This document shows, piece after piece, positions 7,931 through 56,191 of a stretch of DNA of 57,383 bases (position 1 is its first letter; each line of letters starts with the position of its first letter). The position numbers and the translations under genes are program-made. Under the pieces are notes generated by a model, which saw only the letters and a list, made by a program, of their open reading frames with translations, was not told the origin of the DNA and did not search any database. The stretch comes from an uncultured Bacteroidales bacterium (GTDB taxonomy: Bacteria > Bacteroidota > Bacteroidia > Bacteroidales > UBA932), in assembly GCA_947305045.1 (NCBI GenBank), contig CAMZCW010000002.1, forward strand, positions 1-57,383, in the 5' to 3' direction.

Positions 7931-7997
7931 GAGATTTCTCCACTCACTTCGTTCGGTCGAAATGACAAGTGTCATTCTGTGCGAAGTCGAAGAATCT
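7931..7997. repeat. REP-like palindromic pair between ABC ATPase and permease
   Basis: Two inverted half-elements: GAGATTTCTC...GAAATGACA (7931-7966) and TGTCATTCTG...GAAGAATCT (7970-7997). The right end overlaps the last stop codon bases of the ATPase gene. Same family as copies at 11893, 12841, 14544, 21803, 23501 and 29117. Confidence 0.85.
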
Positions 7998-8718: not shown

Positions 8719-8739
8719 AATTACGCGTTTAAGGAATGG

Positions 8740-8771
8740 CAAAGGTACGCATTTTTCCCAAGACTCCCCAA
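8740..8771 (-). promoter_or_regulatory. Promoter of the ABC ATPase operon
   Basis: Minus strand: TTG (8769-8771), 21 bp, TACCTTTG (8740-8747). The ATG at 8718 is about 15 bp downstream of the expected transcription start. Confidence 0.55.
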
Positions 8772-8796
8772 TCCCCATTTATAGGGATAGGCACAA

Positions 8797-17548: not shown

Positions 17549-17851
17549 TTACTCTATATCGAAAAGGGCTACAAAACCGGTTAAGTCCAGCACATCTTTA
17601 ACCACGTCGTTCACGTTTTTCAGGACCACATGGGAACCGGCAGCCTGCGCCTTTTTGAGGACGCTCAACAAAAGGCGAAGCCCGCTGGAAGCAATATACT
17701 CCAAGTCTGTACAGTCAAAAATAATGTCCTTGCCCAGACTCTCCATCACGGGCGCCAGGGCCTTTTCCGTCTCTGCGGCGGCGGCGGTATCCAGCTCGCC
17801 ATTAAAGGTAACGACAAACTTGCCGTCCTGTTCTTCTACTTTTGTTGTCAT
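17549..17851 (-). CDS. STAS-domain anti-sigma-factor antagonist
   Basis: 100 residues forming one STAS domain: F-N-G-E-L-D-T-A, then D-C-T-D-L-E-Y-I-A-S-S-G-L-R-L-L with the phosphorylatable serine of the SpoIIAA/RsbV family, and a C-terminal D-L-T-G-F. It would act as the switch protein of a partner-switching pathway, dephosphorylated by the phosphatase encoded just upstream. Its ATG overlaps the TGA of that gene (ATGA), so the two are coupled. The final target (an anti-sigma kinase or another effector) is not in the window unless the kinase domain of the upstream protein serves. Confidence 0.9.
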   Translation of the reverse strand: MTTKVEEQDGKFVVTFNGELDTAAAAETEKALAPVMESLGKDIIFDCTDLEYIASSGLRLLLSVLKKAQAAGSHVVLKNVNDVVKDVLDLTGFVALFDIE

Positions 17852-19953
17852 GATATGGATTTGGTTAAAGTTAATACATTGAATCCGTGTTTACGGCTAT
17901 AGGAAACGGAATCCACCAATTTGCGGGTGAGGTGAATTCCCAGGCCGCCAATGGGCCGGTTCTGGGCATCCAAAGTGGTATCTGCCTCCAAAACGGCCGT
18001 AGGGTCGAAGGGAAAACCGTTATCGACAATGGTGAACCTCACTTCCTTATAATTGCTGTCGGCATAGACCGTAACTTCACCATGCTCGCCCGGAGGATAG
18101 GCATAGTTCATCACGTTCACAACGGTCTCTTCCACGGCAAGACGAATACCGGCTGATACGCGGCGCTCTATCGGGACCTGCGACAGGAAATCTTTGACGA
18201 AAGCACTCAGCGCTGTCACTTCTGCCGTATCGTTCCCCAAGGTAAGTTTTTTCTGAAGGGTGTCGCCCGGCTGGAAGCAGATACAAAGAAGGGTGAGGTC
18301 GTCGCTCTGGGGACAATCTCCGGCAAAAGAACGGGCCTCTGCACTGAGTGCGCTCACAAGTTCCTCGGGCTTGTCTGCACCAATACTCAGGGAACGATTC
18401 AACACTTCCTGCACCCGTTCACGGCCCAGGGCCTGGCGCGCCTTGTTCTTGGCCTCTGTGAGGCCGTCCGTATATAGGAAAAGAGTGGTGCCGGGAGCAA
18501 GCAGCATGGACTGGAGTTCGAACTCCTTATCCGCAAAAACGCCCAGGGGCAGATTGGCCTTGACGGGCAGCAACGAGGCCGATGAGGTTAGAAGGAACGG
18601 TTTGTCGTGCCCGGCATTGGCATAATTGAGTTTGCCGGTATACAAGTCCAGGCAGCCCACGAAGCACGTCACAAACATATTGTTGTCGTCGCCGGCGCAA
18701 AGCTGGTTGTTCAAGGTCCACAGAATCTGCGAAGGGCTTTCCTCCTTCCGGGACACCACGCGGAACAGCGAATGAATCATAGACATGAGCATGGCCGACG
18801 GGACCCCTTTTCCGCTCACGTCGCCAATGCAGAAGAAGAGCTTGCCGTCCCGGATGTAAAAATCATACAGGTCTCCGCCCACCTCCAGCGCCGGTTCCAG
18901 CGTGCCATAGACATAGGAAGGGAAGACCTTAGGAAGCATTTGCTGCTGAATATCCCGCGCGACCGCCAGTTCACCGCTTATGCGAGCCTGTTCTGCCGAT
19001 GCCTCCCTGAGCTTGTTCTCGTTCCGCGCATAGCGGTTTATCATGAACGCCAAAATGGCCAGACCCAGCAGCATAAAGAGGATGTGCTGGTGCCGCATCT
19101 TCTGCATCGGCCCAAAGACTTCTTCCGTCTTGTACACCTGGATGAGCTGCCAGTAAGGCTCTTTTTCCAGTTGCGTCTTCCGGATGGCAATACCCGGATA
19201 ATCGGTCTCCGGGAGCCGGCCGTTCACGATCTCCACCACCGTGAACACTTCTTCCCGGGGAATCCGCGCCACCGAAGGACCGGCCACCAAATCGCCTTCC
19301 ACCGTAAGCAGCAAGCCAAAAGAATTGTCATAGGGCTGGTGGGCATTGAGTGTGTCTCCCAGCCAGGAAAGGTCGATATCCAGGCCGCACAGGGCCGCCA
19401 GCCGGCCTTCATCATTATAGATGGGCACAGAATAAGTGGCATAGGAAAGCGAGTCCGTTCCATAGAGATAAGGGTCTGTCCAGGAGGGGCCCAGGTGATC
19501 CAGCGACCAGATAAATTCCGGATTTTGGCTATAATCGTGCTCCGGCGTACCAATTTGCTCGGTGACGATGCTGCCATCCGGCAGTTTATGGGCATAGGGC
19601 TCAAAAAGACGGCCTTTGGAGGGATAGTAATAAGGCATGAAGGCCAGGCAGCCGCCCACCACGTTGGGATTGTCGTCGATCAGACGCACCATAACCGGGA
19701 AAAGGGAATCCGGATTGTTCAGGTGCCGCATGATGTCCCACTTGTTCTCTGCCAGGGTAACCTCCGTGAGTTCCAGCATATGCTCGATATCGTGGACCAT
19801 GGAGCCCAGGACCACCTTGCTCCTGAGGTTCATTTCTTCCGTCATCATGCGGCGAAGCCGCTGATACTGAACTACGGAGATGACCTCCACCAGCACAGCG
19901 GCGAAGACCACAATTCCCACGCGGGTTATCCTACCGGAATCCAGTTTTTTCAT
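17848..19953 (-). CDS. dCache sensor - PP2C (SpoIIE/RsbU) phosphatase - HATPase (RsbW-like) fusion
   Basis: About 701 residues. Order: N-terminal membrane segment (about 15-32), extracytoplasmic double-Cache-like sensor (about 40-290, with Y-Y-P-S-K-G-R and W-T-D-P-Y-L-Y), second membrane segment (about 300-318), coiled linker, PP2C phosphatase (about 335-565, with V-G-G-D-L-Y-D-F-Y, I-G-D-V-S-G-K-G-V-P-S-A, D-G-L-T-E-A and D-D-L-T-L), then a HATPase_c anti-sigma-kinase-like domain (about 575-700, with L-A-V-E-E-T-V-V-N-V-M-N-Y-A-Y). Phosphatase and kinase in one chain, next to a STAS protein, make a complete signalling switch. The ATG at 19953 is chosen over a TTG at 19968. It is divergent from the NRPS genes, 103 bp away. 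Confidence 0.9.
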   Translation of the reverse strand: MKKLDSGRITRVGIVVFAAVLVEVISVVQYQRLRRMMTEEMNLRSKVVLGSMVHDIEHMLELTEVTLAENKWDIMRHLNNPDSLFPVMVRLIDDNPNVVGGCLAFMPYYYPSKGRLFEPYAHKLPDGSIVTEQIGTPEHDYSQNPEFIWSLDHLGPSWTDPYLYGTDSLSYATYSVPIYNDEGRLAALCGLDIDLSWLGDTLNAHQPYDNSFGLLLTVEGDLVAGPSVARIPREEVFTVVEIVNGRLPETDYPGIAIRKTQLEKEPYWQLIQVYKTEEVFGPMQKMRHQHILFMLLGLAILAFMINRYARNENKLREASAEQARISGELAVARDIQQQMLPKVFPSYVYGTLEPALEVGGDLYDFYIRDGKLFFCIGDVSGKGVPSAMLMSMIHSLFRVVSRKEESPSQILWTLNNQLCAGDDNNMFVTCFVGCLDLYTGKLNYANAGHDKPFLLTSSASLLPVKANLPLGVFADKEFELQSMLLAPGTTLFLYTDGLTEAKNKARQALGRERVQEVLNRSLSIGADKPEELVSALSAEARSFAGDCPQSDDLTLLCICFQPGDTLQKKLTLGNDTAEVTALSAFVKDFLSQVPIERRVSAGIRLAVEETVVNVMNYAYPPGEHGEVTVYADSNYKEVRFTIVDNGFPFDPTAVLEADTTLDAQNRPIGGLGIHLTRKLVDSVSYSRKHGFNVLTLTKSIS

Positions 19954-20027
19954 ACACTTTTCTATCAAACCGTAAAGTTATCATTTGTTTTTGACAACTC
20001 AAAACGATAAAAATTGAAAATTATATT

Positions 20028-20035
20028 TAAATTTG
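20028..20035 (+). promoter_or_regulatory. Possible -7 element for the NRPS operon
   Basis: TAAATTTG in the AT-rich 103-bp divergent gap, about 22 bp before the ATG at 20057. No TTG is seen at the proper -33 spacing, so it may depend on an activator or another sigma factor. Confidence 0.35.
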
Positions 20036-20056: not shown

Positions 20057-23000
20057 ATGAGCCAAAGTTCTTGCAACACTGTTCTGGAAGCTTTTCACCA
20101 GCAGGTGAAAGCCCATCCCAACCAAACTGCCGTGGTCTATGAAAACATCCGCCTAACCTACGCAGAGGTAGAAAAACTGACAGACAACCTCGCCGCTTAT
20201 ATAGAAACCCAAGTGCCCGCAGGAAGCGTCGTGGGCATTATGCTGGGCCGAAACGAGTACATGATGCTGGCCCCGCTGGGCGCGCTCAAAGCCGGTTGCG
20301 CCTATCTCCCGCTGGACCCTTCGTACCCGCCGGAGCGCCTGGAATTCATGATAAAAGACGCCGGCGCCAAAATGCTGGTGGCCGACGAAGACCTCCTGCC
20401 CATCCTGAAGGAGTACAAGGGCCCCGTCCTGATAACCGCCGACATCCGCAAACTGCATCCCGGCACGCCCAAGGCACAGCCGCCCAAACCGGAGGACCTG
20501 TTCATCCTGCTGTACACCAGCGGCACCACCGGCACGCCCAAGGGCTGCATGCTCTGCCACAAAAACATTTACGCCTTTTGCAGCCACCACGGCGAGCTCA
20601 TGGGCATGGACCATACCACCCGCATGACAGCCTACGCCAGCTTTGGCTTCGACGCCTTTGTGGCGGACCTGTACAGCGCTATCATCAGCGGCGCCACCCT
20701 CTACATTATCCCGGACCGCATCCGGCTCAACCTGCCCGCCCTGCACGAGTATTTTGAGCAAAATGGTATCACCTGCTGCTTCATGACCACCCAGGTGGCC
20801 ACCCAGTTCGCCATCAACTATCCGGACTGCAAGGGCCTCAAAATTCTGTACACCGGCGGCGAAAAAATGTCCAGCTTCCCGCTGCCGCACTACCGCCTGT
20901 TCAACTGCTACGGCCCCACGGAAACCATCTGCTACGTGCTCTGCGAAGAAGTGAAAAAACAGGAAGAGAACATCCCCATCGGCCTTCCCCTCAAAGACAT
21001 TAAGGTCTATGTGGTCAAGGACGGCAAGCAGGTGCCCAAAGGCGAGCCGGGAGAACTCTGGATCACCGGCACCCAGGTGGGCCTGGGATACCTCAACCGG
21101 CCGGACAAAACCGCAGAGGTCTTTGTGAAGAATCCCTTTGACGATGACCCCAAGTACGCCACGGCCTACCGCACCGGAGACATTGTCCGCGAGCGGGAAG
21201 ACGGCAAAATTGAATTCATGGGCCGAAAAGACGGCCAGGTGAAAATCCGCGGCTTCCGCATCGAGCTCAAGGAAGTAGAGGCCATCATTCGCGAATTCCC
21301 TGACATTAAAGACGTTACGGTGCAGGCCTTTGACGAGCCCGGCGCCGGTGCCGGCAAGTTCCTGGCTGCGTACATCGTCAGCCCCAAGGAGATCAACATC
21401 CAGGAACTGGACGCCTTCATCGCCAGCAAAAAACCGCCGTACATGGTGCCGGCCGTTACCATGCAGATAGAAGCCATTCCGCTGAATGTGAACCAGAAAG
21501 TGGACGTGAAGGCCCTTCCCAAGCCGGAACCGCAGGAGCACAAGGCGGAGGCCCACGTGGCGCCGCTCAACAAGCTGGAACAGCAAATCAGCGACATCAT
21601 CAAGGAGAGCGTAGGCATTGGCGGCTTCGGCCTCACAGACCCGCTGTATTACAGTGGCCTCTCATCCCTGGGTGCCCTGCGCCTGGCTACGGAGCTGTAC
21701 AAGCGCTTCGGCCTGGAGCCGGACATGAACAGCTTTGCCAAAACCGCCAGCCTGCAAAGCATAGAGAACGATATCCTGGACATCCTCCTGTCAGGAGATT
21801 CCTGTCATTCTGAGCGCAGCGAAGAATCTAATGGGGAAGACCAGCCCCAGGAGCTCACCTTCCAGCAAACCGGCCTGTACCTGGACTGCGTAAGGAATCC
21901 TTCGTCCACCGCCTATAATCTGCCGTTCATCCTCACCTTCCCGAAAGGCACGCTGGCAGGGGAGGTCAAAAAAGCCCTCCTGGACATACTGGAGGCCCAT
22001 CCCGCCCTTACCGCCCGCATCGAGCAGCGGGACGGAAAAGTGTATCTGGTGCCCGCCCAGACAGAGGGGGAAATCCCTTCCGTCAAGCTGGGCAGCGAAG
22101 AAGAATACGAGGCCCTCAAAGAAGCCTTCATGCAGCCCTTCGACCTCTCCGGCCCGCTCTACCGGCTCACCCTGGTCCAAACGCCCGGCAAGCTGCGCCT
22201 GATGGGGGACTTCCACCACCTCATCTTTGACGGCCACTCCTATGACCTGTTCCTGGGCCAGCTCACCGCCGCGCTGGAGGGAAAAGCACCTGAAAAAGAG
22301 GACTATACCTACTTTAGCTACGCCCGGGACCAGAAGGCCTACCAGGACAGCGCGGAATTCCAGGAGGCGGAAACCTTCTTTGCCGAGCAAATCGCCGGCA
22401 AGGAGGACGAAACCGGCGTCATCCCGGACAAAACGCCCCTGGAAGACGAGATTGGCCACGAAATCTGGCTCCGCAAAAAGATTGGGGCCGATGTTATGGC
22501 GCGCTGCCATGAACTGGGCATCTCCCCGGCCAGCTACTTCCTGGGTGCCGCCTATGTCACCATAGGCGCGTTCTGCGGGCAGCAAAAAATTTACATGTGC
22601 ACGGTAGCCAACGGCCGCAGTGGCATGCGCTGTGCCGATACCTACGGCATGTTTGTGAACACCATGGCCCTGTCCGGAGAGGTAGGGGAGCAGCAGGCCG
22701 ATGACTTCCTGAAGGAGACGGACCGCAACTTTGCCACCACGCTCTCCTACCAGAACTATCCCTTCGCCCGCGTGGCGTCGGCCTATGACTTCCATCCGGC
22801 CGTCATGCTGGCCTACCAGGTGGGGCTCGTGGAAAAATACACCATCCACGGCAAACCGCTTGAGGATGAACTGATTACGCAGGACACGCCCAAGTTCCCG
22901 CTGAGCATCTTCATCGAAGGAACGGAGGAAGCCCCGGAACTGGCCCTGGCCTACGACAGCAGCCTGTACACGGAGCCGCTCATCCAGTCCTTTGCCGACG

Positions 23001-26000
23001 CCATGGAGTGCGTAGTAAGGGGTCTGCTGAAGAACGTTCCGCTCACGGAGATTCCCTTTGTGGACGGGGAGCGCCTCCGGGAGCTGGACAGCTTCAACGA
23101 CTACACCCAGGAAGTGGACCTCTCCGAGACCATTGTGGACCTGTTCCGCAAACAGGCCAAGGCCACCCCGGACGCCCCGGCCGTGCTCTTTGACGGAAAA
23201 ACCATCAGTTACAAGGAATTGGACACCTACACAGATGCCCTGGCCGCAAAAATCCAGTCTTACGGTCTTGGGGAAGAAGACGTGGTGTCTGTCCTGATTA
23301 ACCGCAACGCCTGGATGACCAAGGCCTCCCTGGCCGCCATGAAGGCCGGCTGCGCCTACCAGCCGCTGGATCCGTCCTACCCCACGGAGCGCCTCAATTT
23401 CATGATTCAGGATTCCCGGGCCAAGCTCCTCATTGCCGATAAAGAACTCATCCCGCTGGTAGGGGACTACACCGGTCCTGTGCTCACCACCGCAGAGCTG
23501 GAGATTTCTCCGCTCGCTTTGCTCGGTCGAAATGACAAAGACACTGTCATTTCGAGCGGAGTCGAGAAATCTCCCAAGCCGGAGAACCTGTACATCCTGC
23601 TGTACACTTCCGGCTCCACCGGCACGCCCAAGGGCGTTATGCTGGAGCACCGCAACCTGGTGAACTTCTGCGCCTGGTACCGGGACTACTACAAGCTCCA
23701 GCCCGGAGACAAAGTGGCGGCCTTCGCCAGCTACGGCTTCGACGCCAACATGATGGACCAGTATCCCGCTCTCTCCTGCGGCGCCTGCATCTGCATCATT
23801 CCGGAAGAGGTCCGGCACGACCTTGGCGCCCTGAACCGCTTCCTCATCGACAATGGCGTAACCCACAGCTTCATGACCACCCAGGTGGGCGTGATGTATG
23901 CCAAAAACTACCCGGACAATCCGGTCCTGAAGCACCTGAGCGTAGGCGGCGAAAAACTGATCTCCATGCCGCCGCCGTCCTACCATTTCTACAATGGTTA
24001 CGGCCCCACGGAGTGCACCATCTTCTCCACCATCTTCAAAGTGGAGGAGCGGGAGGAAAACATTCCCATCGGCCATCCGCTGAGCAACATGCCGCTGTAC
24101 GTGGCCGACCGTCACATGCGGCGCCTGCCCGTGGGGGCCGCCGGTGAGCTGCTCATCAGCGGCGCCGGTGTAGGCCGCGGCTACCTCAACAACCCGGAAA
24201 AGACCGCCGAGTGCTTTGTGGACAGCCCCTTCCAGCCGGGTACGCGCATGTACCACTCCGGTGACATTGTGCGGTATCGGGCCGACGGAAATATTGAATT
24301 TGTGGGCCGGAAAGACCGTCAGGTCAAGATCCGCGGCTTCCGTATCGAACTCAAGGAAGTAGAAGGCGTGCTGCAGGAATTCCCGGGCGTGAAAGACGTC
24401 ACGGTGCAGGCGCTGGACGCCCCATCCGGCGGCAAGTTCCTGGCTGCGTATGTGGTGGCGGAAGGCAGCTTCGACGCCAAAGCCGCCGGCGAATTCATCC
24501 GCGAGCGCAAGCCTTCGTACATGGTGCCTGCCGCCTGGATGCAGCTGGACAAGATTCCGCTCAACGTGAACCAGAAGGTGGACCGCAAGGCCCTGCCGGA
24601 GCTCGTTCCCACCTCCATGGATGAGTACGTTGCCCCCGTGGGAGAAACGGAAAAAGCCCTCTGCGCCATCTTTGCCGATATCCTGGGCATGGAACGCGTG
24701 GGTGCCACGGACTCCTTCTTCGACCTGGGAGGTTCTTCGCTCATGGTCACCAACGTGATGGTGAGCGCAGAGAAACAAGGCCTGCACTTTGCCTATTCTG
24801 ACGTGTTCTCGCACCCGTCGGCCCGCTCCCTTGCGGCCTTCCTCACAGGAGAGGTGGCGGTGCAGGAGCAGGACAGCAACATTACGGACTACGACTACTC
24901 CGCCATCGACGCCCTGCTCTCCAAAAACACGCTGGAATCCTTCCTGGGCGGGGAACGCCTCCACCTGGGACGCAACATCCTGCTCACCGGCGCCACGGGC
25001 TTCCTGGGCATCCACATGCTCAAGGAACTCATCGAGAGCACCGGGCCGGACACCACCATCTGGTGCCTGCTCAGGCCCAAGGGCAGCGTTTCCCCGGAGC
25101 GCCGCCTGCGGGAAATGCTGGTGTATTACTTCGAGAAAGACTACCGCAAGCTCCTGGGAACGCGCATCCGGCCCGTCGCGGGAGACATTACCCAGCCCCA
25201 GACGCTGGAGCCGCTTACACAGATAGACACGGTGTTCAACTGCGCCGCCAATGTGAAGCACTTCTCCAAAGGAACGGACATTGAGGACATTAACTACGGC
25301 GGTGTCAAGAACCTGGTGGCCCTCTGCGAGCGCAATGGCGCCTACCTGGTGCATGTCTCCACCGAGAGCGTGGGCGGCCTTACCCCGGGCTATGTTCCCG
25401 GCACCCTCACGGAGCAGATGCTCTTCTTCGGGCAGCTCACGGACAACCAGTATGTCCACTCCAAGTTCCTGGCAGAGCGCTACATCCTGGAACACATGGT
25501 GGCCGGAACGCTCAAGGCCAAAATCATGCGCGCCGGCAACCTGTCGCCCCGTGCCTCTGACGGTGAATTCCAGGTGAACCTGAACGCCAACGCCTCCATG
25601 GGCCGCCTCAAGGCCTTCAAGATGCTGGGCGCCTGCCCGTTCCAGCTGTTGGAAGGACAGATGGAGTTCTCGCCCATCGACCAGTCGGCCCATGCCATGG
25701 TCATGCTGGCCCGCACCCCGCTGGAGAACTGCGTGTTCAACGTGTCCAACAACCACCTCATCCCCATGGACGACATTCTGATGCGCCTGGAGAAGATAGA
25801 CGGGAAACCGCTGGAATACGTGGAATCCTCCGAATTTGCACGCCGCGTGGAGCAGGCCAACGCAGACCCCGCCAAAACGCGCATCATGGCGCCGCTGGTG
25901 GCCTATCAGCAGTCCGCCGCGGAAGCGGAGGGCGTAGAAACCATTCCTTCCACCGCCTACACCATGCAGGTGCTGCACCGCATGGGCTTCCGCTGGGACC

Positions 26001-26065
26001 ACACCTCCAGCGACTACCTGGACCTCATCTTTGAAATGCTCCGAACCCTGCAATATTTTGGATAA
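20057..26065 (+). CDS. Nonribosomal peptide synthetase 1 (A-T-C-A-T-R)
   Basis: 2,002 residues from the ATG at 20057 (a GTG lies one codon earlier). Domains: A1 (about 10-490; L-Y-T-S-G-T-T-G-T-P-K-G near 152, Y-G-P-T-E-T near 286, N-V-N-Q-K-V-D near 478), T1 (about 515-575, carrier serine in an atypical G-L-S-S-L), C (about 600-1000; H-H-L-I-F-D-G near 718), A2 (about 1025-1505), T2 (about 1525-1590; D-L-G-G-S-S-L) and a terminal thioester reductase (about 1635-2002; T-G-A-T-G-F-L-G and Y-V-H-S-K). It would join two amino acids and release the product by NADPH reduction, not hydrolysis. Pocket residues read by eye: A1 D-A-A-F-Y-G-C-C-Y-K, A2 D-A-M-F-S-G-G-I-F-K; no firm substrate call. REP-like DNA encodes C-H-S-E-R-S-E-E-S in the T1-C linker and a 24-residue insert in A2. 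No phosphopantetheinyl transferase is nearby. Confidence 0.93.
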   Translation: MSQSSCNTVLEAFHQQVKAHPNQTAVVYENIRLTYAEVEKLTDNLAAYIETQVPAGSVVGIMLGRNEYMMLAPLGALKAGCAYLPLDPSYPPERLEFMIKDAGAKMLVADEDLLPILKEYKGPVLITADIRKLHPGTPKAQPPKPEDLFILLYTSGTTGTPKGCMLCHKNIYAFCSHHGELMGMDHTTRMTAYASFGFDAFVADLYSAIISGATLYIIPDRIRLNLPALHEYFEQNGITCCFMTTQVATQFAINYPDCKGLKILYTGGEKMSSFPLPHYRLFNCYGPTETICYVLCEEVKKQEENIPIGLPLKDIKVYVVKDGKQVPKGEPGELWITGTQVGLGYLNRPDKTAEVFVKNPFDDDPKYATAYRTGDIVREREDGKIEFMGRKDGQVKIRGFRIELKEVEAIIREFPDIKDVTVQAFDEPGAGAGKFLAAYIVSPKEINIQELDAFIASKKPPYMVPAVTMQIEAIPLNVNQKVDVKALPKPEPQEHKAEAHVAPLNKLEQQISDIIKESVGIGGFGLTDPLYYSGLSSLGALRLATELYKRFGLEPDMNSFAKTASLQSIENDILDILLSGDSCHSERSEESNGEDQPQELTFQQTGLYLDCVRNPSSTAYNLPFILTFPKGTLAGEVKKALLDILEAHPALTARIEQRDGKVYLVPAQTEGEIPSVKLGSEEEYEALKEAFMQPFDLSGPLYRLTLVQTPGKLRLMGDFHHLIFDGHSYDLFLGQLTAALEGKAPEKEDYTYFSYARDQKAYQDSAEFQEAETFFAEQIAGKEDETGVIPDKTPLEDEIGHEIWLRKKIGADVMARCHELGISPASYFLGAAYVTIGAFCGQQKIYMCTVANGRSGMRCADTYGMFVNTMALSGEVGEQQADDFLKETDRNFATTLSYQNYPFARVASAYDFHPAVMLAYQVGLVEKYTIHGKPLEDELITQDTPKFPLSIFIEGTEEAPELALAYDSSLYTEPLIQSFADAMECVVRGLLKNVPLTEIPFVDGERLRELDSFNDYTQEVDLSETIVDLFRKQAKATPDAPAVLFDGKTISYKELDTYTDALAAKIQSYGLGEEDVVSVLINRNAWMTKASLAAMKAGCAYQPLDPSYPTERLNFMIQDSRAKLLIADKELIPLVGDYTGPVLTTAELEISPLALLGRNDKDTVISSGVEKSPKPENLYILLYTSGSTGTPKGVMLEHRNLVNFCAWYRDYYKLQPGDKVAAFASYGFDANMMDQYPALSCGACICIIPEEVRHDLGALNRFLIDNGVTHSFMTTQVGVMYAKNYPDNPVLKHLSVGGEKLISMPPPSYHFYNGYGPTECTIFSTIFKVEEREENIPIGHPLSNMPLYVADRHMRRLPVGAAGELLISGAGVGRGYLNNPEKTAECFVDSPFQPGTRMYHSGDIVRYRADGNIEFVGRKDRQVKIRGFRIELKEVEGVLQEFPGVKDVTVQALDAPSGGKFLAAYVVAEGSFDAKAAGEFIRERKPSYMVPAAWMQLDKIPLNVNQKVDRKALPELVPTSMDEYVAPVGETEKALCAIFADILGMERVGATDSFFDLGGSSLMVTNVMVSAEKQGLHFAYSDVFSHPSARSLAAFLTGEVAVQEQDSNITDYDYSAIDALLSKNTLESFLGGERLHLGRNILLTGATGFLGIHMLKELIESTGPDTTIWCLLRPKGSVSPERRLREMLVYYFEKDYRKLLGTRIRPVAGDITQPQTLEPLTQIDTVFNCAANVKHFSKGTDIEDINYGGVKNLVALCERNGAYLVHVSTESVGGLTPGYVPGTLTEQMLFFGQLTDNQYVHSKFLAERYILEHMVAGTLKAKIMRAGNLSPRASDGEFQVNLNANASMGRLKAFKMLGACPFQLLEGQMEFSPIDQSAHAMVMLARTPLENCVFNVSNNHLIPMDDILMRLEKIDGKPLEYVESSEFARRVEQANADPAKTRIMAPLVAYQQSAAEAEGVETIPSTAYTMQVLHRMGFRWDHTSSDYLDLIFEMLRTLQYFG
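21803..21829. repeat. REP-like unit in frame inside NRPS1 (T1-C linker)
   Basis: 27 bp, TGTCATTCTGAGCGCAGCGA then AGAATCT, read as nine codons C-H-S-E-R-S-E-E-S. It falls between T1 and C, a flexible linker, and differs at one base from the copy in NRPS2. Confidence 0.9.
23501..23573. repeat. REP-like palindromic pair in frame inside the A2 domain of NRPS1
   Basis: GAGATTTCTC...GAAATGACA, a 7-bp centre, then TGTCATTTCGAGCGGAGTCG...GAAATCTC: the head-to-head double form also seen at 7931-7997. It encodes an insert (E-I-S-P-L-A-L-L-G-R-N-D to S-S-G-V-E-K-S-P) just before the A3 core motif. The paralogous A2 of NRPS2 has ordinary sequence here. Confidence 0.9.
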
Positions 26066-26071
26066 ACCGCC

Positions 26072-29000
26072 ATGACTTCACCCCTCTCCCAAGCGCAACT
26101 GAGCATGTTCCTCTCCAGCCAGGGACTGGACGCCCAATCCGGCAACTACCAGCAGGCCCTGCTGTTCAAACTGCCTCCTTCCATAGACCTCCAACGGTTA
26201 AAAAAGGCCCTGGAGGCCTTTGTGGCCGCCCATCCCTACATCCTCTCCCGCGTGAAAGAAGTGGACGGGGTCCCGTGTATGGAACAGCGGGAGGAAACAT
26301 GGACGGCAGAGATTAAGGAAATAGACAGTATCGATCAGGTAAGGGGAAGCTTTGCGCAGCCCATGGACCTGCACAAAGACCGCCTCTTCCGCCTGGAGCT
26401 CTATAAAGCGCCGGATGCCGCCTACTTCTACGCAGACTTTCACCACATCATCGCAGACGGCGCCTGCATCCCCATTATGCTGCAGGATTTGCAGGCCGCC
26501 TACGAGGGTCTGGAGGTCCCGGCAGAGAAGATAAGCGGGGCCGATATTGCCCGTCAGGAGCAGGCGCAGCGGGAGAGTGAGGCCTTCGAGGAGGCCAAGC
26601 AGTGGTTCGCACAGGAGTTTGGCCCGACTACGGAGACCGAAAGCCGGATTGTACCGGATGTCTTTGGCGCCAAGCCGTCGGCCTATAAGTCGCTGCTGGT
26701 GGAACTGCCGCTGGACAGCGCCGCCATGCACGAGGTCCTGGAGCGCTACCGTTATGCGGACAGCATCCTTTTCACCGCCCTCTTCGGCCTTACGCTGGCC
26801 TCCTGGAATGCCGACAACGCCGCCAGCTTCTCCACCATCTGGAACGGCCGCAAGGGCGTGGCGGCAAGAACAGCCTTCACCATGTGCGTGCACACCCTGC
26901 CCGCCTTTGTGAACGCCACCCCGGATACGCCGGTGAGCGAGGTCCTGGACCGGATGAAGGCACAGACCATGGGCCTGAGGGCCCGTCCGTTCTTTTCCAT
27001 GGCGGACTGCGGCACCTACCTGGGCCTGGGCCCGGGCATCAACTTCGGATTCCAGGGCCAGTTTGTGGTAGAAGTCCCTTCGCTGGTTCTCGCGGGAGAA
27101 CGTGTCCTGGGAGAAGACCTCCGCACCAATCCGCCGGGCCTGAACCTCGCCGTGGAGCTCTTTACGCCCACCGACCGCCCCTACATGATGCGCTTCTGGT
27201 ATCGGCCCAGCATGTACACGGAGGGCATCCTGCGGAACTTTGCCCAGAGCATGGCCGCCGCGGTGCTTTCCTTAAAGAAGGCCGACACCGTAGGGCAACT
27301 GGACTTTGCCACGCCGGAAGAAATCAAGCTTCTGGACAGCTTCAATCCTGGAAAAACGGTGGGAGACGCGGACAAGACGGTGGTGGATTTCTGGCGGGAA
27401 CGCGTACAAGAAGCGCCGGAGCAGCTGGCCCTCGTGTGCAAGGATAAGAAACTGACCTACAGAGAAATAGACCTTCTTTCGGACAAACTGGCCGCCTATA
27501 TTGAAAAAACCGTCAAGCCCGGCCATGTGGTGTCCATTATCCTGGGCCGGAGCGAATACACGGCGGTGGCTCCGCTGGGCGTTATCAAGGCCGGTTGCGC
27601 CTACCAGCCGCTGGATCCGTCCTACCCCAAGGAACGCCTTCAGTTCATGGTAAAAGACGCCTCCAGCGCCCTCCTCATTGCCGATGAAGGCCTGGCAGAA
27701 CTAGTGGAGGGCTTTGAGGGTCCGGTGCTGGCAACGAAGGACATTCCCGGCCTGCCAGAGGGCAAGCCCGAGAGCCATCCCAAGCCGGAAGACCTCTTTG
27801 TGCTCCTGTACACCAGCGGCACCACCGGCACGCCCAAGGGCTGCATGCTCAACCACCGCAACGTGAGCCTCTTTGCCCAGCGCCATGCCTGGCGGACGGG
27901 CATATCGGCCCAAAGCAAACTCACCGCCTATTCCAGCTTTGGCTTCGATGCCTTTGTGGGAGACCTATATGGCGCGCTGGTTGCCGGAGCCACCCTATAC
28001 CTCATTCCCGAGGAAATAAGGCTGGACCTCCAGGCGCTGCACCAGTATTTTGAGGAGAACGGCATTACCCACAGCTTTATGACCACCCAGGTGGCCACTC
28101 AGTTTGCCATCAACTACCCCAGTTGCAAGGGCCTGCAGGTGCTGTATACCGGCGGCGAAAAGTTGAGCGCCCTGCCGCTGCCCGGCTACAGGCTGTTCAA
28201 CTGCTACGGCCCCTCCGAGAGTCTCTGCTACGTGGTGGCCAAGGAAGTGCAAAAGCAGGAAGAAAACATCCCCATCGGCGTTCCGCTGCCCGGCATCCAT
28301 TGCTATGTGGTAAATAAGGCTGGAAGGCGCGTGCCCGTAGGGGCCGCCGGAGAGCTGCTGGAGGCCGGTCTGCAAGTGGGCGACGGCTATCTGGGCCGTC
28401 CGGACAAAACCGCAGAATCCTTTGCCGACAACCCGTACGAGCAAGACCCCGCCTACAAGCGCCTGTACCGCACCGGAGACATTGTGCGCTACCGCCCCGA
28501 CGGAGACATCGAATATATCGGCCGAAAAGATGCCCAGGTGAAAATCCGCGGCTTCCGCATCGAACTCAAGGAGGTGGAAGCCGTCATCCGTGACTTCCCG
28601 GACATCAAGGACGTGACCGTACAGGCCTTTGACCAGGAAGGCGGCGGCAAGTTCCTGGCCGCGTATGTGGTAAGCGACCGGGAGGTGGACACCAGCGCCC
28701 TCAACGCCTTTATCCTGGAGCGCAAGCCGCCTTATATGGTGCCTGCCGTTACCATGCAAATCGACGCCATTCCGCTCAATGTAAACCAGAAGGTGGACGT
28801 AAAGGCCCTGCCCAAGCCGCAGGCCAAAAAGGCCCAGGACCAGGCCGCCGCGCCGCTCAATCTCCTGGAAGAAGAACTGGTGGCCCTCCTCAAGGAAACC
28901 ACCGGCATAGAAGGCGCCGCGCTCACGGAACCCCTCATGCTCTACGGCCTCAGCTCCCTGAGCGGCCTGCGCCTGGCCACCGAACTGTTCAAGCGCTACG

Positions 29001-32000
29001 GCATTCAGGCCGACATGAACAGCTTTGCCAAAACAGCCACCCTGCAAAGCATTGAGAACGAGATTCTGAAAAGCTGGATGGCCGGGGATGCCTCCTCGCA
29101 CGCCGGCAACTCCTCCTGTCATTCTGAGCGAAGCGAAGAATCTCTCCACCCCCAGCCCCTCACCAACCAGCAGGCCGGCGTGTTCCTGGACTGCATGAAA
29201 GCCCCGCAGGAGACCCTCTACAATATTCCCATGCTGTGGACTTTCCCCGGGGAAGTATCGGCCCAGGCCCTGCTGGAGGCGGTCCGGAAGGTACTGGCAG
29301 CGCATCCGGCCCTGCAATCCTGCTTTAACCAGGTAGACGGACAGGTGTGCCAGGTTCCCACGGATATTCCCGTCCCCGTATCCATCCGGGAGGGGGAACT
29401 GGAAAGCCTCAAGGAGAACTTCATCCTTCCTTTCGACCTTGGCAAAGGGCCGCTGGGAAAGGTGGTGATTGTACCCGGAAAAGACAAGACTTATCTCCTG
29501 AGCGACTTCCACCACCTGGTGTTTGACGGCCGCAGTTATGACCTCTTTATCCAGGAAGTGTGCGCTGCGCTGGAAGGAAAGGACCCTGCCCCTGAGGCCT
29601 ATACCTACTTCCAGTACGCCGCCTGGCAGAAAGCGGCGGAGGGGAGCGAGGCCTATGCCCGGGCCCGGGACTTCTTTGCCCGGCAACTGGACGGTCTGGA
29701 GAGCCCTTCCACCATCATTCCGGACCTGGAGCACAGCGACCAGCCCGGCCGCGAGGTGTTCCTCCAAAAGTTTGTCAAGGCCGACATCCATCCGCTCTGC
29801 AAGAAACTGGGCATCTCGCCCGCCAGCTTCTATCTGGGCGCCGCCTACCTCACCCTGAGTGCCTACAATGCCAACAAGAAAGTGTATATCTGCACCATCA
29901 GCAACGGCCGCGGCAACCTCAGGACGGCCGACAGCTTTGGCATGTTCGTGAACACCCTGGCCCTCGCCGGAGACTGCTCTATTGAGAGCACAGAAGCCTT
30001 CCTGAAGCAGTGCGACGAGAACTTCCAGGCCACCCTGCAGCACCAGGATTATCCTTTTGCCAAGGTGGCGGCGGAGTTCGGCTTCCAGCCGCAGGTCATG
30101 CTGGCCTACCAGGTGGGCGTGCTGGCAGAGTACCGGGTAAACGGACAAGCGGTGAGCGGAGAAAATATGGACGCCGGGGCGCCCAAGTTCCCGCTGAGCA
30201 TCTATATCGACGGCAGCGAGGGCCAGGAGGCCATCGTCCTGGGCTACGACAACAGCAAATACAGCGAGGCCCTTATGGAGGCCTTTGCAGACGCAATGGA
30301 ATGCGTGGTCCGGGGCCTGCTCGCGCACGAAAAGCTCAACCAGGTGCCCTTCGTGGACGGAGAGCGCCTGAAAGAGCTGGAAAGTTTCAACCACTATAGC
30401 CTGGAGGTGGACGAGAGCCAAACCATCGTCAGCCTCTTCCGCAGGCAGGCGCAAAAGACGCCCGATGCGCCGGCGGTTTGCTATCTGGACTACACCTGCA
30501 CCTATGCGCAGGCCAACGCCCTCACGGACCGCATCGCCGCCGCCGTGGCCGCCAGGGGACTGAAGACGGAAGACGTGGTGTCCGTGCTTATCGGCCGCAA
30601 CCAGTGGATGGCCCTGGCCTCCCTGGGCATCCTCAAGGCCGGCTGCGCCTATCAGCCGCTGGACCCGTCCTACCCGCAGGAGCGCCTCAATTTTATGGTC
30701 AAGGACGCATCGGCCAAGCTGCTCATTGCCGATAAAGAGTTCCTGCCGCTGCTCAATGAGTACACGGGGCCCGTGCTCACTACCGACGAGCTGGAGTCCC
30801 TTCCGGAAGGCCCCGTTCCCGCGGGTCCCGGGCCGGAAAACCTCTTTATCCTGCTGTACACTTCCGGCTCCACCGGCGTGCCCAAGGGCGTGATGCTGGA
30901 GCACCACAACCTGGTGAACTTCTGCGCCTGGTACCAGCGGTACTTTGACCTCAATGAGACCAGCCGGGCATCGGCCTATGCCAGCTACGGCTTCGACGCG
31001 TGCATGATGGACATGTATCCCGTGCTCACCGCCGGCGGCTGCCTGCACATTATCCCGGAGGAAACCCGCCACGACATGAGCCAGCTGGATGCCTTTATCA
31101 CGGATAACGGCATCACCCACAGCTTCATGACCACGCAGGTGGGTGTGATGTACGCCAAGAACTTCCCGGACAACAAGTCCCTCAAGCACCTCTCCGTGGG
31201 CGGCGAAAAGCTGGTTTCCATGGATCCTCCTTCCTATGGCTTCCACAACGGCTACGGCCCCACCGAGTGCACCATCTTCTCCACCATCTTCGACGTGAAG
31301 AAGCGCGAGGCCAACATTCCTATCGGCCACGCCCTGGACAACACCAGCATGTATGTGATGGACGGCGACTTCCGTCGCGTGCCGGTGGGCGCCGCCGGAG
31401 AACTGCTCATTGCCGGAAACCCTTGCGTGGGCAGGGGGTATCTTAATCGGCCTGAAAAGACGGCGGAGGTCTTTATCGACAATCCTTTCCACAAAGGTAT
31501 GCGGGCCTACCGGAGCGGCGACATTGTGCGCTGGAGAACCGACGGCAACATCGAATTTGTGGGCCGTCAGGACGGTCAGGTGAAGATCCGCGGTTTCCGT
31601 ATCGAGCTCAAGGAGGTGGAGGAAGTGCTGCGGGAATGCCCGGGCGTCAAGGATATCACGGTGCAGGCCTTCGACAACCCTTCCGGCGGCAAATTTATCG
31701 CTGCTTACGTGGTGTCTGACGGCACTTTTGACATCCCGGCCGCCAAGGCTTTCATCCAGGAGCGCAAGCCGCCGTACATGGTGCCGGCCTCCTTTGTCCA
31801 GCTGGACCGGATTCCGCTCAACGTGAACCAGAAGGTGGACCGCAAGGCCCTGCCCAAACCCACACCCGATGCCGGAGGGGAATATGTGGCCCCCGCTACG
31901 GAGCTGGAAAAGAACCTGTGCGAGATTTTCGCCGAGGTCCTGGGCATGGAAAAGGTGGGTGCAACGGACAATTTCTTCGACCTGGGCGGGTCTTCGCTCA

Positions 32001-33337
32001 TGGTAACCAACGTGATGGTATGCGCAGAAAAACGCGGCCTCAAGTTTGCCTATGCCGATGTCTTTGCCCATCCTACCGCCCGCGAACTGGGCGCCTTCCT
32101 GGGTGGGGGAGCCCCGGCGGCGCCCAAGGAAGACAGCGAGATTAGCGAGTACGACTATACTGCTATCGACAAGTTGCTTGCCGGCAATACGCTGGAAGCC
32201 TTCCTGGGCGGGCAGCGGCAAAGCCTGGAAGGGCAGATTCTGCTGACGGGCGCCACCGGCTTCCTGGGCATCCACATGCTGCGGGAACTGATCGAAAATA
32301 CGGCCGATGACACCGTCATCTGGTGCCTACTCCGGCCCAAGGGAACCCTCTCGGCGGAGCGCCGCCTGAAAGAGATGCTGGTGTACTACTTTGAGAAAGA
32401 TTATCGGCCGCTCTTTGGCAAGCGCATCCGCGTAGTGAACGGAGACATCACCCAGCCGGCCGTGTTCGATTCCCTCAAAGCTTCCGGCATCCCCTGGAGC
32501 GTGGTGGTGAACTGCGCCGCCAATGTGAAGCACTTCTCCAAAGGAACGGATATTGAGGATATTAACTACGGCGGAGCCAAGAACCTCTGCGCCTTTTGCG
32601 AGGCCACGGCCGCCCGTCTGGTGCATGTCTCTACGGAAAGCGTGTCCGGTACCAGCCCGGGCAGCAGGCCCAAGCAGCTCACGGAACAGCAGCTGTACTT
32701 TGGCCAGCAGGCCGCCAACCAGTACATCCACTCCAAATTTATGGCAGAAAGGTTCATTCTGGAGCGGATGGCCGCCGGAGCCCTCAATGCCAAAATCCTG
32801 CGCGCCGGCAACCTGTCGCCCCGCTCGGCGGACGGCGAGTTCCAGGTGAACTTCAATGCCAACTCGGCCATGGGTCGCCTGCGGGCCTACAAACTGCTGG
32901 GGGCCTGCCCATACTCCCTGCTGGATGCCAAGATGGAGTTCTCTCCGGTGGATGACAGTGCCCACGCCATGCTGCTCCTGGCCACCACACCGCGGGAAAA
33001 CTGCGTCTTCAATGTGTCCAACAACCACCTGCTGCCCATGGAGGATATTGTGTCCCGGCTGCAGAAGATAGACGGCAAGCGGATGGATTACGTGGAATTC
33101 CCGGAATTCATGGCGCAGGTGCAGGCCCTGATGGCCCAGCCGGACAAGGCTCCGCTGCTGAGCAGCCTGGTAGCCTATGCCCAGTCACCCACCGAGCAGG
33201 AGACGGTGATCAACCAGCCCTCCGTGCACTTCACCATGCAAGTGCTCTACCGCCTGGGCTTCACCTGGGACCACACCTCCTCCGCCTACGTGGACATGAT
33301 TTTTGAAATGCTCCGCACCCTGCAGTATTTTGGATAA
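26072..33337 (+). CDS. Nonribosomal peptide synthetase 2 (C-A-T-C-A-T-R)
   Basis: 2,421 residues, starting 6 bp after the NRPS1 stop. Domains: C1 (about 5-420; H-H-I-I-A-D-G near 122), A1 (about 430-920; L-Y-T-S-G-T-T-G-T-P-K-G near 579, Y-G-P-S-E-S near 711), T1 (about 940-1005; G-L-S-S-L), C2 (about 1030-1430; H-H-L-V-F-D-G near 1145), A2 (about 1450-1920), T2 (about 1940-2005; D-L-G-G-S-S-L) and a reductase (about 2050-2421; T-G-A-T-G-F-L-G near 2056, Y-I-H-S-K near 2217). From A1 onward it is collinear with and closely similar to NRPS1, ending in the same L-R-T-L-Q-Y-F-G, so the pair arose by duplication; the extra C1 is the main difference. Pockets: A1 D-A-G-F-Y-G-C-C-Y-K, A2 D-A-M-F-S-G-G-I-F-K. 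C1 may acylate the first amino acid or accept the NRPS1 product. Confidence 0.93.
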   Translation: MTSPLSQAQLSMFLSSQGLDAQSGNYQQALLFKLPPSIDLQRLKKALEAFVAAHPYILSRVKEVDGVPCMEQREETWTAEIKEIDSIDQVRGSFAQPMDLHKDRLFRLELYKAPDAAYFYADFHHIIADGACIPIMLQDLQAAYEGLEVPAEKISGADIARQEQAQRESEAFEEAKQWFAQEFGPTTETESRIVPDVFGAKPSAYKSLLVELPLDSAAMHEVLERYRYADSILFTALFGLTLASWNADNAASFSTIWNGRKGVAARTAFTMCVHTLPAFVNATPDTPVSEVLDRMKAQTMGLRARPFFSMADCGTYLGLGPGINFGFQGQFVVEVPSLVLAGERVLGEDLRTNPPGLNLAVELFTPTDRPYMMRFWYRPSMYTEGILRNFAQSMAAAVLSLKKADTVGQLDFATPEEIKLLDSFNPGKTVGDADKTVVDFWRERVQEAPEQLALVCKDKKLTYREIDLLSDKLAAYIEKTVKPGHVVSIILGRSEYTAVAPLGVIKAGCAYQPLDPSYPKERLQFMVKDASSALLIADEGLAELVEGFEGPVLATKDIPGLPEGKPESHPKPEDLFVLLYTSGTTGTPKGCMLNHRNVSLFAQRHAWRTGISAQSKLTAYSSFGFDAFVGDLYGALVAGATLYLIPEEIRLDLQALHQYFEENGITHSFMTTQVATQFAINYPSCKGLQVLYTGGEKLSALPLPGYRLFNCYGPSESLCYVVAKEVQKQEENIPIGVPLPGIHCYVVNKAGRRVPVGAAGELLEAGLQVGDGYLGRPDKTAESFADNPYEQDPAYKRLYRTGDIVRYRPDGDIEYIGRKDAQVKIRGFRIELKEVEAVIRDFPDIKDVTVQAFDQEGGGKFLAAYVVSDREVDTSALNAFILERKPPYMVPAVTMQIDAIPLNVNQKVDVKALPKPQAKKAQDQAAAPLNLLEEELVALLKETTGIEGAALTEPLMLYGLSSLSGLRLATELFKRYGIQADMNSFAKTATLQSIENEILKSWMAGDASSHAGNSSCHSERSEESLHPQPLTNQQAGVFLDCMKAPQETLYNIPMLWTFPGEVSAQALLEAVRKVLAAHPALQSCFNQVDGQVCQVPTDIPVPVSIREGELESLKENFILPFDLGKGPLGKVVIVPGKDKTYLLSDFHHLVFDGRSYDLFIQEVCAALEGKDPAPEAYTYFQYAAWQKAAEGSEAYARARDFFARQLDGLESPSTIIPDLEHSDQPGREVFLQKFVKADIHPLCKKLGISPASFYLGAAYLTLSAYNANKKVYICTISNGRGNLRTADSFGMFVNTLALAGDCSIESTEAFLKQCDENFQATLQHQDYPFAKVAAEFGFQPQVMLAYQVGVLAEYRVNGQAVSGENMDAGAPKFPLSIYIDGSEGQEAIVLGYDNSKYSEALMEAFADAMECVVRGLLAHEKLNQVPFVDGERLKELESFNHYSLEVDESQTIVSLFRRQAQKTPDAPAVCYLDYTCTYAQANALTDRIAAAVAARGLKTEDVVSVLIGRNQWMALASLGILKAGCAYQPLDPSYPQERLNFMVKDASAKLLIADKEFLPLLNEYTGPVLTTDELESLPEGPVPAGPGPENLFILLYTSGSTGVPKGVMLEHHNLVNFCAWYQRYFDLNETSRASAYASYGFDACMMDMYPVLTAGGCLHIIPEETRHDMSQLDAFITDNGITHSFMTTQVGVMYAKNFPDNKSLKHLSVGGEKLVSMDPPSYGFHNGYGPTECTIFSTIFDVKKREANIPIGHALDNTSMYVMDGDFRRVPVGAAGELLIAGNPCVGRGYLNRPEKTAEVFIDNPFHKGMRAYRSGDIVRWRTDGNIEFVGRQDGQVKIRGFRIELKEVEEVLRECPGVKDITVQAFDNPSGGKFIAAYVVSDGTFDIPAAKAFIQERKPPYMVPASFVQLDRIPLNVNQKVDRKALPKPTPDAGGEYVAPATELEKNLCEIFAEVLGMEKVGATDNFFDLGGSSLMVTNVMVCAEKRGLKFAYADVFAHPTARELGAFLGGGAPAAPKEDSEISEYDYTAIDKLLAGNTLEAFLGGQRQSLEGQILLTGATGFLGIHMLRELIENTADDTVIWCLLRPKGTLSAERRLKEMLVYYFEKDYRPLFGKRIRVVNGDITQPAVFDSLKASGIPWSVVVNCAANVKHFSKGTDIEDINYGGAKNLCAFCEATAARLVHVSTESVSGTSPGSRPKQLTEQQLYFGQQAANQYIHSKFMAERFILERMAAGALNAKILRAGNLSPRSADGEFQVNFNANSAMGRLRAYKLLGACPYSLLDAKMEFSPVDDSAHAMLLLATTPRENCVFNVSNNHLLPMEDIVSRLQKIDGKRMDYVEFPEFMAQVQALMAQPDKAPLLSSLVAYAQSPTEQETVINQPSVHFTMQVLYRLGFTWDHTSSAYVDMIFEMLRTLQYFG
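29117..29143. repeat. REP-like unit in frame inside NRPS2 (T1-C2 linker)
   Basis: 27 bp, TGTCATTCTGAGCGAAGCGA then AGAATCT, nine codons giving C-H-S-E-R-S-E-E-S. Same position between T1 and C as the NRPS1 copy at 21803. Confidence 0.9.
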
Positions 33338-33343: not shown

Positions 33344-33560
33344 GCCTTGACTGGCCTGACTGGTTTGGCTGGTTTGACCGTCCTGCCCGGCCTGACTGGT
33401 TTGGCTGGTTTGACTGGCCTGACTGGTTTGGCTGGTTTGACCGTCCTGCCCGGCCTGACTGGCTTGACTGGCTTGGCTGGCTTGGCCGGCTTGACTGGCC
33501 TGACTGGCTTGCCGGGCCTGCCGGGCCTGCCTGGCCTGCCGGGGCAAGGTTTGCCCCTCC
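33344..33560. repeat. Low-complexity CTGGY repeat with 63-bp higher-order period
   Basis: Begins 7 bp after the NRPS2 stop. Variants of CTGACTGGTTTGGCTGG recur; the block CTGACTGGTTTGGCTGGTTT plus following CCGTCCTGCCCGG appears at 33356 and again at 33419 (63 bp apart), then decays into shorter units. Open frames here encode only G-L-T-G-L-A-G-L or its reverse and are not believable genes. Confidence 0.85.
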
Positions 33561-33569
33561 CAGGCCCCA

Positions 33570-33923
33570 TTAAAGCACACCCACCCCCATCTGAGTGGCC
33601 TCCGGGGCTTCCCACTGTGCTTTAACCACCCTCACTGGCCCCCGTTAAAGCACACCCTCCCTCATCAGAGCACCCTCTGCGGCAGCAAGGTGTGCTTTAA
33701 CCACCCTCCTGGCTCACGTTAAAGCACACCCACCCCCTCCAGACCGTCCTCAGAGCCATGCCCCTGTGCTTTAACCACCATCCCTGAACCCCATTAAAGC
33801 ACCCCCATCCCCCTCTGAGTGGCCTCAGTGGCATCCTGCTGTGCTTTAACCACCCTCTCAGGTTCCCGTTAAAGCACACCTACCCCCTCTGAGTGGCCTC
33901 AGTGGCATCCCGCTGTGCTTTAT
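33570..33923. repeat. Array of five 75-bp palindromic units
   Basis: Arms TTAAAGCACA...TGTGCTTTAA bound units at 33570-33625, 33645-33700, 33719-33774, 33794-33849 and 33869-33923 (start spacing 75, 74, 75, 75). Each unit is about 56 bp, with 18-19 bp between. Several carry a central CTGAG-TGGC-CTCAG hairpin. The fourth left arm and fifth right arm each differ at the last base. A sixth, reversed copy is at 36641-36696. Confidence 0.92.
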
Positions 33924-34995: not shown

Positions 34996-35074
34996 AGGAG
35001 AATAGGCTTGGCCTGGAATCCCAAGGCGAGATAATTTCCCCGCTTTCCTTCCGGCATGGAGACCAGGCTTGGCC
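34972..35074. repeat. Tandem duplication, 61-bp offset, upstream of hflX
   Basis: AATTTCCCCGCTTTCCTTCC plus GGCAAGGAGAATAGGCTTGGCC at 34972-35013 recurs with few changes at 35033-35074. The second copy supplies the -33 TTG of the hflX promoter. Confidence 0.8.
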
Positions 35075-35099
35075 GGGCATTGCTTTTTTTGTATCTTTG
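35069..35099 (+). promoter_or_regulatory. Promoter of hflX (near-leaderless)
   Basis: TTG (35069-35071), 20 bp, TATCTTTG (35092-35099). The ATG at 35107 is 8 bp past the -7 box, so the transcript would start at or next to the initiation codon. Confidence 0.65.
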
Positions 35100-35106
35100 T
35101 GCTCGT

Positions 35107-36519: not shown

Positions 36520-36696
36520 GAAGGCGGGGAGGACCGCCACGGGCGCGAAAACGGGGGAAAACGTAGCATTGGCGGGCCAGAAGGTCCGCTAGTGGCGCAA
36601 TTAGGGGCCAAAACGTGGCAGCAGCGGGACCTACCGGGCATTAAAGCACAGCGGGATGCCACTGAGGGCACTCAGATGGGGGTGGGTGTGCTTTAA
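36520..36696. repeat. Right outer inverted-repeat arm flanking hflX, with palindromic unit 6
   Basis: Reverse-complement partner of 33866-34043. The palindromic unit TTAAAGCACA...TGTGCTTTAA lies at 36641-36696, again 56 bp, with central CTGAG-GGCA-CTCAG. The rest of the 36292-36736 gap shows no gene. Confidence 0.82.
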
Positions 36697-36736
36697 CGGG
36701 GCCCGGGGAGAGCGGCAACCCAGAGCCCGGGGAGCA

Positions 36737-56153: not shown

Positions 56154-56191
56154 AGCATATTTTGTTTAGTTATACCAGCAAAATTTGTCCA

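Follow-up and report, generated by a model that had tools for sequence, protein, structure and literature searches.

The stretch of DNA analysed here, called the window throughout, comprises 57,383 nucleotides of a contig (CAMZCW010000002.1) from an uncultured Bacteroidales bacterium. It carries two tandem genes for nonribosomal peptide synthetases (NRPSs), named P1 and P2, next to genes for a sensor phosphatase of the SpoIIE type and a STAS protein. We read these genes as a conserved cassette that would make dipeptide aldehydes with a variable first and a fixed second residue, with P1 and P2 as parallel dimodular synthetases and the phosphatase and STAS protein as a linked partner switch. Judged from the sequences and their relatives, this reading has a probability of about 60%. 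The enzyme class is already known. The link to the regulator genes across Bacteroidales and the one-sided conservation of the adenylation code were both undescribed in the literature searched; the primary papers on human gut dipeptide aldehydes lie outside its listings, and we do not claim absence from print.

Tandem synthetases and their specificity codes

P1 (20057..26065, forward strand) starts at the ATG at 20057 or at an in-frame GTG at 20054 and stops at 26065; it has 2003 amino acids when counted from 20054. P2 (26072..33337, forward strand) follows after a spacer of 6 bp and has 2421 amino acids. The domain order of P1 is A-T-C-A-T-R (A, adenylation; T, thiolation; C, condensation; R, reductase), with A1 at 20069-21523, the T1 motif at 21656, C at 21848-23035, A2 at 23144-24601, T2 at 24656-24844 and R at 24977-26062. 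P2 is C-A-T-C-A-T-R, with C1 at 26072-27307, A1 at 27359-28846, T1 at 28904-29107, C2 at 29153-30328, A2 at 30413-31855, T2 at 31916-32101 and R at 32237-33334 (all domain limits are approximate). Pfam and the domain models built in this analysis gave identical orders. The core motifs are intact: each of the three C domains has HHxxxDG, each of the four T domains the carrier-serine motif and each of the four A domains both A3 and A10, and both R domains have TGATGFLG, the catalytic Thr (VHVSTESV) and YxxxK. With two A-T modules, a C domain between them and an R domain with intact motifs, both proteins are reductase-terminated dimodular NRPSs. An earlier sequence-only reading of this DNA had described the same two architectures, the same spacing and intact reductase motifs, and Pfam, our own models and the reading of the motifs all agree with it.

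Of 7986 candidates scored, 2381 database proteins are related to P2 at E <= 1e-100. Relatives are encoded in 349 stretches of genome contigs, from which we took the best 80 (L001 to L080), ranked by NRPS similarity alone; all counts of 80 loci refer to these. The NCBI phylum is Bacteroidota for 79 of them, 64 of which belong to the order Bacteroidales. A ruminant or rumen compartment is named in 24 record titles, and 59 titles either name one or carry the codes RUG, RGIG or RUI, which we take to be rumen-project codes. Genome-wide context was taken from G001, the genome of L001 (RUG331), in place of the window genome. NRPSs are a minority trait in the wider order of G001: of 149 genomes sampled from it, 12 contain a condensation domain of any kind. 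A second survey searched 199 genomes from the family to which G001 belongs; 20 stretches were fetched, of which three repeat earlier loci and 17 are new. The tandem recurs in L001, where P2 is 95% identical. Because of this recurrence and their great length, P1 and P2 are no chance open reading frames (ORFs).

P1 and P2 are 62% identical across their shared length. In a quickly built tree with 84 rows and some long branches, made from the A2-T2-R region, P1 clusters with the P1 of L001, L031 and L021, and P2 with the P2 of L001, L020, L002, L012, L015 and L025. L015 has one P2-type gene only, between the sensor phosphatase and hflX. L031 has a P1-type gene immediately upstream of hflX, on a contig that begins inside the gene and leaves its upstream side unseen. 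Since the tree separates the two types and single-gene loci exist, we take P1 and P2 to be old paralogues that now stand side by side. Each ends in its own R domain, which makes parallel action the simplest reading, and they are probably two parallel synthetases. The tandem order, the 6 bp spacing and the N-terminal C domain of P2 would also suit enzymes working in series, in which the dipeptide of P1 is passed to the C domain of P2 to give a tetrapeptide aldehyde and the R domain of P1 is bypassed or used for editing. This arrangement is very improbable, given that the motifs of the P1 R domain are intact, that in L015 and most of the 80 loci, many of whose contigs are cut, a P2-type enzyme with the same C1 has no P1 beside it, and that a complete A-T-C-A-T-R enzyme of 1990 amino acids in L082, from the second survey, has no second NRPS within its 19.9 kb stretch. 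The loci with one enzyme alone (L015, P2-type; L082, A-T-C-A-T-R), together with an R domain at the end of each protein, also speak against the proposal of the sequence-only reading that P1 and P2 are a minimal two-enzyme pathway.

Specificity codes were read at the Stachelhaus positions, located by motif anchors, and compared over 80 dimodular ORFs. The A1 codes are DAAFYGCCY in P1 and DAGFYGCCY in P2, and the A2 code is DAMFSGGIF in both. Module 2 is of this same type in 69 of the 80 ORFs (AMFSGGIF in 51, AMFAGGIF in 11 and AMFSGAIF in seven). Over the whole set, there are nine distinct codes in module 2 against 42 in module 1, and in the 55-65% bin of domain identity, module 2 has a code identity of 0.87 and module 1 one of 0.50. 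Code identity of module 2 is only 0.24 in the bin of 30-55% domain identity, which is due to 11 ORFs with exchanged codes. Judged by these codes, the family seems to keep the aldehyde-bearing residue and to vary the first one.

A sensor phosphatase and a STAS protein linked to the synthetases

The sensor phosphatase gene (17848..19968, reverse strand) is divergent from P1 and starts about 0.1 kb from it, at a TTG at 19968 or, equally likely, at an ATG five codons inward. It encodes a dCache-type sensor, a PP2C/SpoIIE phosphatase and a C-terminal RsbW-like HATPase. The STAS protein (17549..17851, reverse strand) is anti-sigma-factor-antagonist-like, has YIASSG around the expected phosphorylated serine and is likely the substrate of the sensor phosphatase. 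The window contains all parts of a partner-switching module of the SpoIIE/Rsb type: a PP2C phosphatase, an RsbW-like ATPase and a neighbouring STAS protein with the Ser motif. Using narrow regular expressions, we found the Ser motif in 50 of 61 STAS ORFs from the loci and the window, and among 58 SpoIIE ORFs DVSGKG in 41, the YTDG motif in 53 and the HATPase motif in 39. Of the shorter SpoIIE ORFs (428-452 amino acids), the one scanned, that of L003, has no HATPase.

The sequence-only reading had described a compact cluster with no thioesterase, transporter or tailoring gene beside the pair, and it is right that no thioesterase, tailoring enzyme or transporter adjoins P1 and P2 among the 30 neighbouring ORFs scanned with Pfam. 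The scan covered 30 of the 130 window ORFs of at least 90 amino acids, P1 and P2 not counted, with the small ORFs partly covered; an ABC ATPase ORF lies at 7996-8778, about 11 kb from P1. That reading missed the sensor phosphatase and STAS pair, which adjoins P1 and travels with the family, and P1 and P2 do not stand bare. A SpoIIE relative lies within 5.5 kb in 58 of the best 80 loci, a STAS relative in 58 and both in 54. For the 42 loci with at least 4.5 kb on both flanks, the counts are 38 with SpoIIE, 35 with STAS and 35 with both. From the density of SpoIIE in 20 genomes, 0.77 matches would be expected near the NRPS (about 0.04 per genome), against 23 seen. These genomes were hand-picked from loci already showing SpoIIE, and only their density is used, linkage in 20 of 20 being a result of the selection; their 77 SpoIIE rows are matches and not genes, one gene in G014 giving two. 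On the NRPS tree, the pair changes between four arrangements at least 10 times while the link persists, or perhaps nine times, since L006 was scored as downstream and opposite owing to an over-extended start of its NRPS ORF.

Several observations weigh against the cassette reading. The linkage is not universal, as four of the 42 well-flanked loci are without SpoIIE and seven without STAS. Of the 17 new loci of the second survey, four have one or both genes, with STAS only in L082, STAS and a weak, cut SpoIIE match in L087, and both in L088 and L090; their NRPSs are 41-63% identical to P2. The other 13 have neither, most of them being cut or having short flanks. Among these, L086 (46% identical) and L098 (41%) show neither gene in the available flanks. 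The pair also adjoins ybeY/mnmG in the window, L001, L015 and L039, which is partly shared synteny and is what a bystander from an old gene order would show, with the NRPS regulated otherwise; SpoIIE genes in 111 of the 149 genomes of the order point the same way. We nevertheless find it unlikely that the pair is such a bystander. Only three of the 80 loci have mnmG or ybeY in the fetched flanks, yet the pair is retained in most, in four arrangements, and the matches near the NRPS exceed the density expectation about which the choice of SpoIIE-positive genomes was noted above. Moreover, three loci (L089, L091 and L094) of an NRPS clade that is 35-36% identical, with more than 4.5 kb on both flanks, have neither SpoIIE nor STAS. 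In the order sample, G022 and G079 have no SpoIIE, and in G048 and G072, for which all SpoIIE matches are listed, none is on the NRPS contig. Because this distant clade and these four other NRPS genomes have no linked SpoIIE, the link looks like a property of the P1/P2 clade and not of NRPSs in general.

There are two STAS genes in G001, and each adjoins a SpoIIE gene. After the second pair of this genome, a dCache-SpoIIE-HATPase gene with a STAS gene (7703-13393 of L101), come an OPT oligopeptide transporter and an M20 peptidase. This is a peptide theme for the same type of switch, and it shows that the module also occurs beside genes other than NRPSs, which counts against the cassette reading. 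In L021 (2-13278), two divergent NRPS genes, one of them incomplete at the contig end, enclose two SpoIIE/STAS pairs arranged back to back, as if there were one pair for each NRPS.

Proposed products and control

The intact motifs of the R domains and their kinship to known thioester reductases (the best solved match of P1 T2-R is 6vtj with 293 bits; AusA, 4f6l, has 126 bits) make release as an aldehyde or alcohol a natural inference, as the sequence-only reading had it. P1 and P2 would each couple two amino acids and, with NAD(P)H as reductant, release the dipeptide as an aldehyde. From the identity of the A2 codes, the second, aldehyde-bearing residue would be the same in both products. As P1 has no starter C domain, it would release a free-amine dipeptide aldehyde, which could cyclise to a (dihydro)pyrazinone. 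C1 of P2, which is 25% identical to C2, probably acylates the first residue, to give a linear N-acyl dipeptide aldehyde unable to cyclise; from the position of C1, the P2 product is possibly N-acylated. Against this, the profile of C1 has higher scores for elongation C domains (157 bits for bacitracin synthetase) than for acyl-starter domains (59 for RzmA and 45 for CDA). On the same opposing side, the R domains may reduce further, to alcohols. Two- and four-electron reductases are not separable from the sequence as read, so the reductases might be four-electron enzymes, or inactive, and yield peptide alcohols or other shunt products in place of aldehydes. Such an outcome is not what we expect, with intact motifs in both enzymes and AusA among the nearest solved relatives of the R domain, and we rate it as unlikely.

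In peptide-aldehyde inhibitors, the aldehyde-bearing residue occupies the S1 pocket of the protease. Together with the nearly fixed A2 code, this makes one class of protease targets a reasonable guess. The code predicts a common aldehyde residue across many species, possibly with a single protease class targeted.

The dCache-PP2C-HATPase protein and the STAS protein would act as a partner switch, in which a ligand from outside alters the phosphorylation of STAS and, through it, the expression or activity of the NRPSs. The best fold matches of the sensor phosphatase are SiaA of Pseudomonas (6k4e) and Rv1364c of Mycobacterium (3ke6), which share the PP2C phosphatase and the RsbW-like ATPase. In contrast to these, the window protein joins dCache, PP2C and kinase-like domains in one chain, and its STAS protein is a separate gene beside an NRPS. 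Autoinducer-2 (AI-2) was considered as a candidate ligand. The rule for CahR-type AI-2 receptors, as given in the available part of PMC9540692, asks for residues equivalent to R126, W128, Y144, D146 and D173 of PctA. Our sensor profile scores 33 bits against PctA, and reading by hand finds the R-x-W pair unconserved and the Y144-like and D173-like positions conserved. It is improbable that the pair is a dedicated receiver for this product class, which would sense secreted dipeptide aldehydes or pyrazinones outside and feed back on their own synthesis. If it were, methanogenic archaea and rumen Bacteroidales would have in common a circuit for peptide-aldehyde signalling or for protease control, in which the fixed second residue is the shared recognition element. 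The linked sensor-switch is a testable entry point to both the product and its control.

Surrounding genes, repeats and known systems

The intergenic region between the sensor phosphatase and P1 (19969..20056) is near-identical in L001. It contains TAAATTTG at 20028-20035, 21 bp upstream of the P1 ATG, which fits the Bacteroides -7 box TAnnTTTG; the match is weak, since the window has 36 occurrences of this pattern with 24 expected. An Rfam search found nothing at gathering scores.

Neighbour families were counted within five genes of the NRPS in the 80 loci and named from one representative each. An ORF of about 450 amino acids, an outer-membrane barrel of the Alginate_exp type, is near the NRPS in 26 loci. 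Alginate_exp was matched by 10 of the 11 barrel members scanned (E up to 1, best 5e-12), and no PDB relative was found by sequence, the lone match at E 0.39 being taken as chance. Other neighbours are a phosphopantetheinyl transferase (PPTase) in 10 loci, an SNF symporter in nine and a MatE-like protein in seven (one MatE member confirmed), and two more clusters recur in 12 and 10 loci. None of the barrel, PPTase, SNF symporter and MatE genes adjoins P1 and P2 in the window. A PPTase gene is present in 18 of 20 genomes, including G001. Near the NRPS pair, the window also encodes an S8 subtilase of the secreted type that carries a Por-type sorting tail (38687-41269) and has relatives near hflX in L031 and L039; going by synteny, it might be the partner or the self-target of a protease inhibitor. 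A serine resolvase and a PD-(D/E)XK transposase-family gene are located at the right end (55554-57210).

A short repeat with the core TCATTYYGAGCGNAG has seven copies in the window, three of them in frame inside the NRPS genes. Copies outside the NRPS genes are at 7972, 11904, 12852 and 14546. Two in-frame copies, both reading CHSERSEES on the forward strand, occupy the equivalent linker in the two paralogues, between T1 and C in P1 (21803..21829) and between T1 and C2 in P2 (29117..29143). A palindromic pair of a related repeat, also in frame on the forward strand, lies in the A2 loop of P1 before motif A3 (approximately 23510..23575), where L001 has a different loop sequence. In-frame palindromic elements occur in Rickettsia, and the window repeat resembles them. 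Directly 3' of the P2 stop is a 9-bp tandem repeat (33346-33543), which on translation gives a possible collagen-like ORF, GLTGLTGLAGL (33347-33625). An array of units of about 75 bp with GTTAAAGCACA...TGTGCTTTAAC palindromes is found at 33565-33922 and 36527-36715, the copies across hflX (35056-36291) being inverted.

The best NCBIfam match of both P1 and P2 is AusA (NF047350), with 955.7 and 976.6 bits, far below the equivalog cut-off of 2500 bits. AusA forms an aldehyde/pyrazinone. Its R domain is homologous, and P1 aligns over nearly its full length, whereas some 400 N-terminal residues of AusA have no counterpart in P1 (which covers model positions 409-2368 of 2373). C1 of P2 has no match to the N-terminal part of the AusA model, and C1 and C2 both match its internal C region.

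Human gut dipeptide-aldehyde NRPSs follow a reductase-ended dimodular logic. The gut dipeptide aldehydes were isolated as pyrazinones, with the aldehydes as the active form, according to the available part of a review (PMC12327764). As far as the accessible text of the sources goes, the likeness to these NRPSs and to ruminopeptin lies in NRPS-made dipeptide aldehydes that turn into pyrazinones. The window, compared by description, is unlike the human gut NRPSs in belonging to Bacteroidales and having a linked switch pair. The sequence-only reading held this class to be associated mostly with gut Firmicutes and to be described less often from Bacteroidales. That may be true of characterised products, but ruminant-associated Bacteroidales commonly have the genes, and a rumen survey, in its available part, reports 5,346 NRPS clusters and counts 934 in Bacteroidaceae (PMC8241843).

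No product or control of the P1/P2 family was found described in the literature searched, and the available parts of PMC12268683 and PMC9248904 contain nothing on this NRPS family. A search for an NRPS gene cluster with SpoIIE and STAS domains returned none, and one for an NRPS beside an anti-sigma factor antagonist and a serine phosphatase returned PMC2812497 alone. The portion of this paper available to us describes mru0068 of the rumen archaeon Methanobrevibacter ruminantium M1, a two-module (C-A-T) NRPS whose neighbours are two serine phosphatases, an anti-sigma factor antagonist and a MatE protein; the terminal domain of this NRPS is a thioesterase in the main text and a thioester reductase in the legend of Figure S8 (PMC2812497). 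PDB 6VTJ is a T-R didomain from M. ruminantium, by the accessible part of PMC8097023. Likened by these partial descriptions, the mru0068 locus (mru0066-0071) and the window both have a C-A-T-C-A-T NRPS with a phosphatase and an antagonist, which fits P2, while P1 is without the first C domain. The methanogen locus is archaeal, with a single NRPS and an adjacent MatE gene, whereas the window is a bacterial tandem with no MatE gene among its Pfam-scanned ORFs. The rumen survey mentions, in the same available part, some similarity between archaeal and bacterial NRPS clusters (PMC8241843). That a rumen methanogen has a similar set of genes prompts the question whether gene transfer or a shared ecological role connects these two domains of life.
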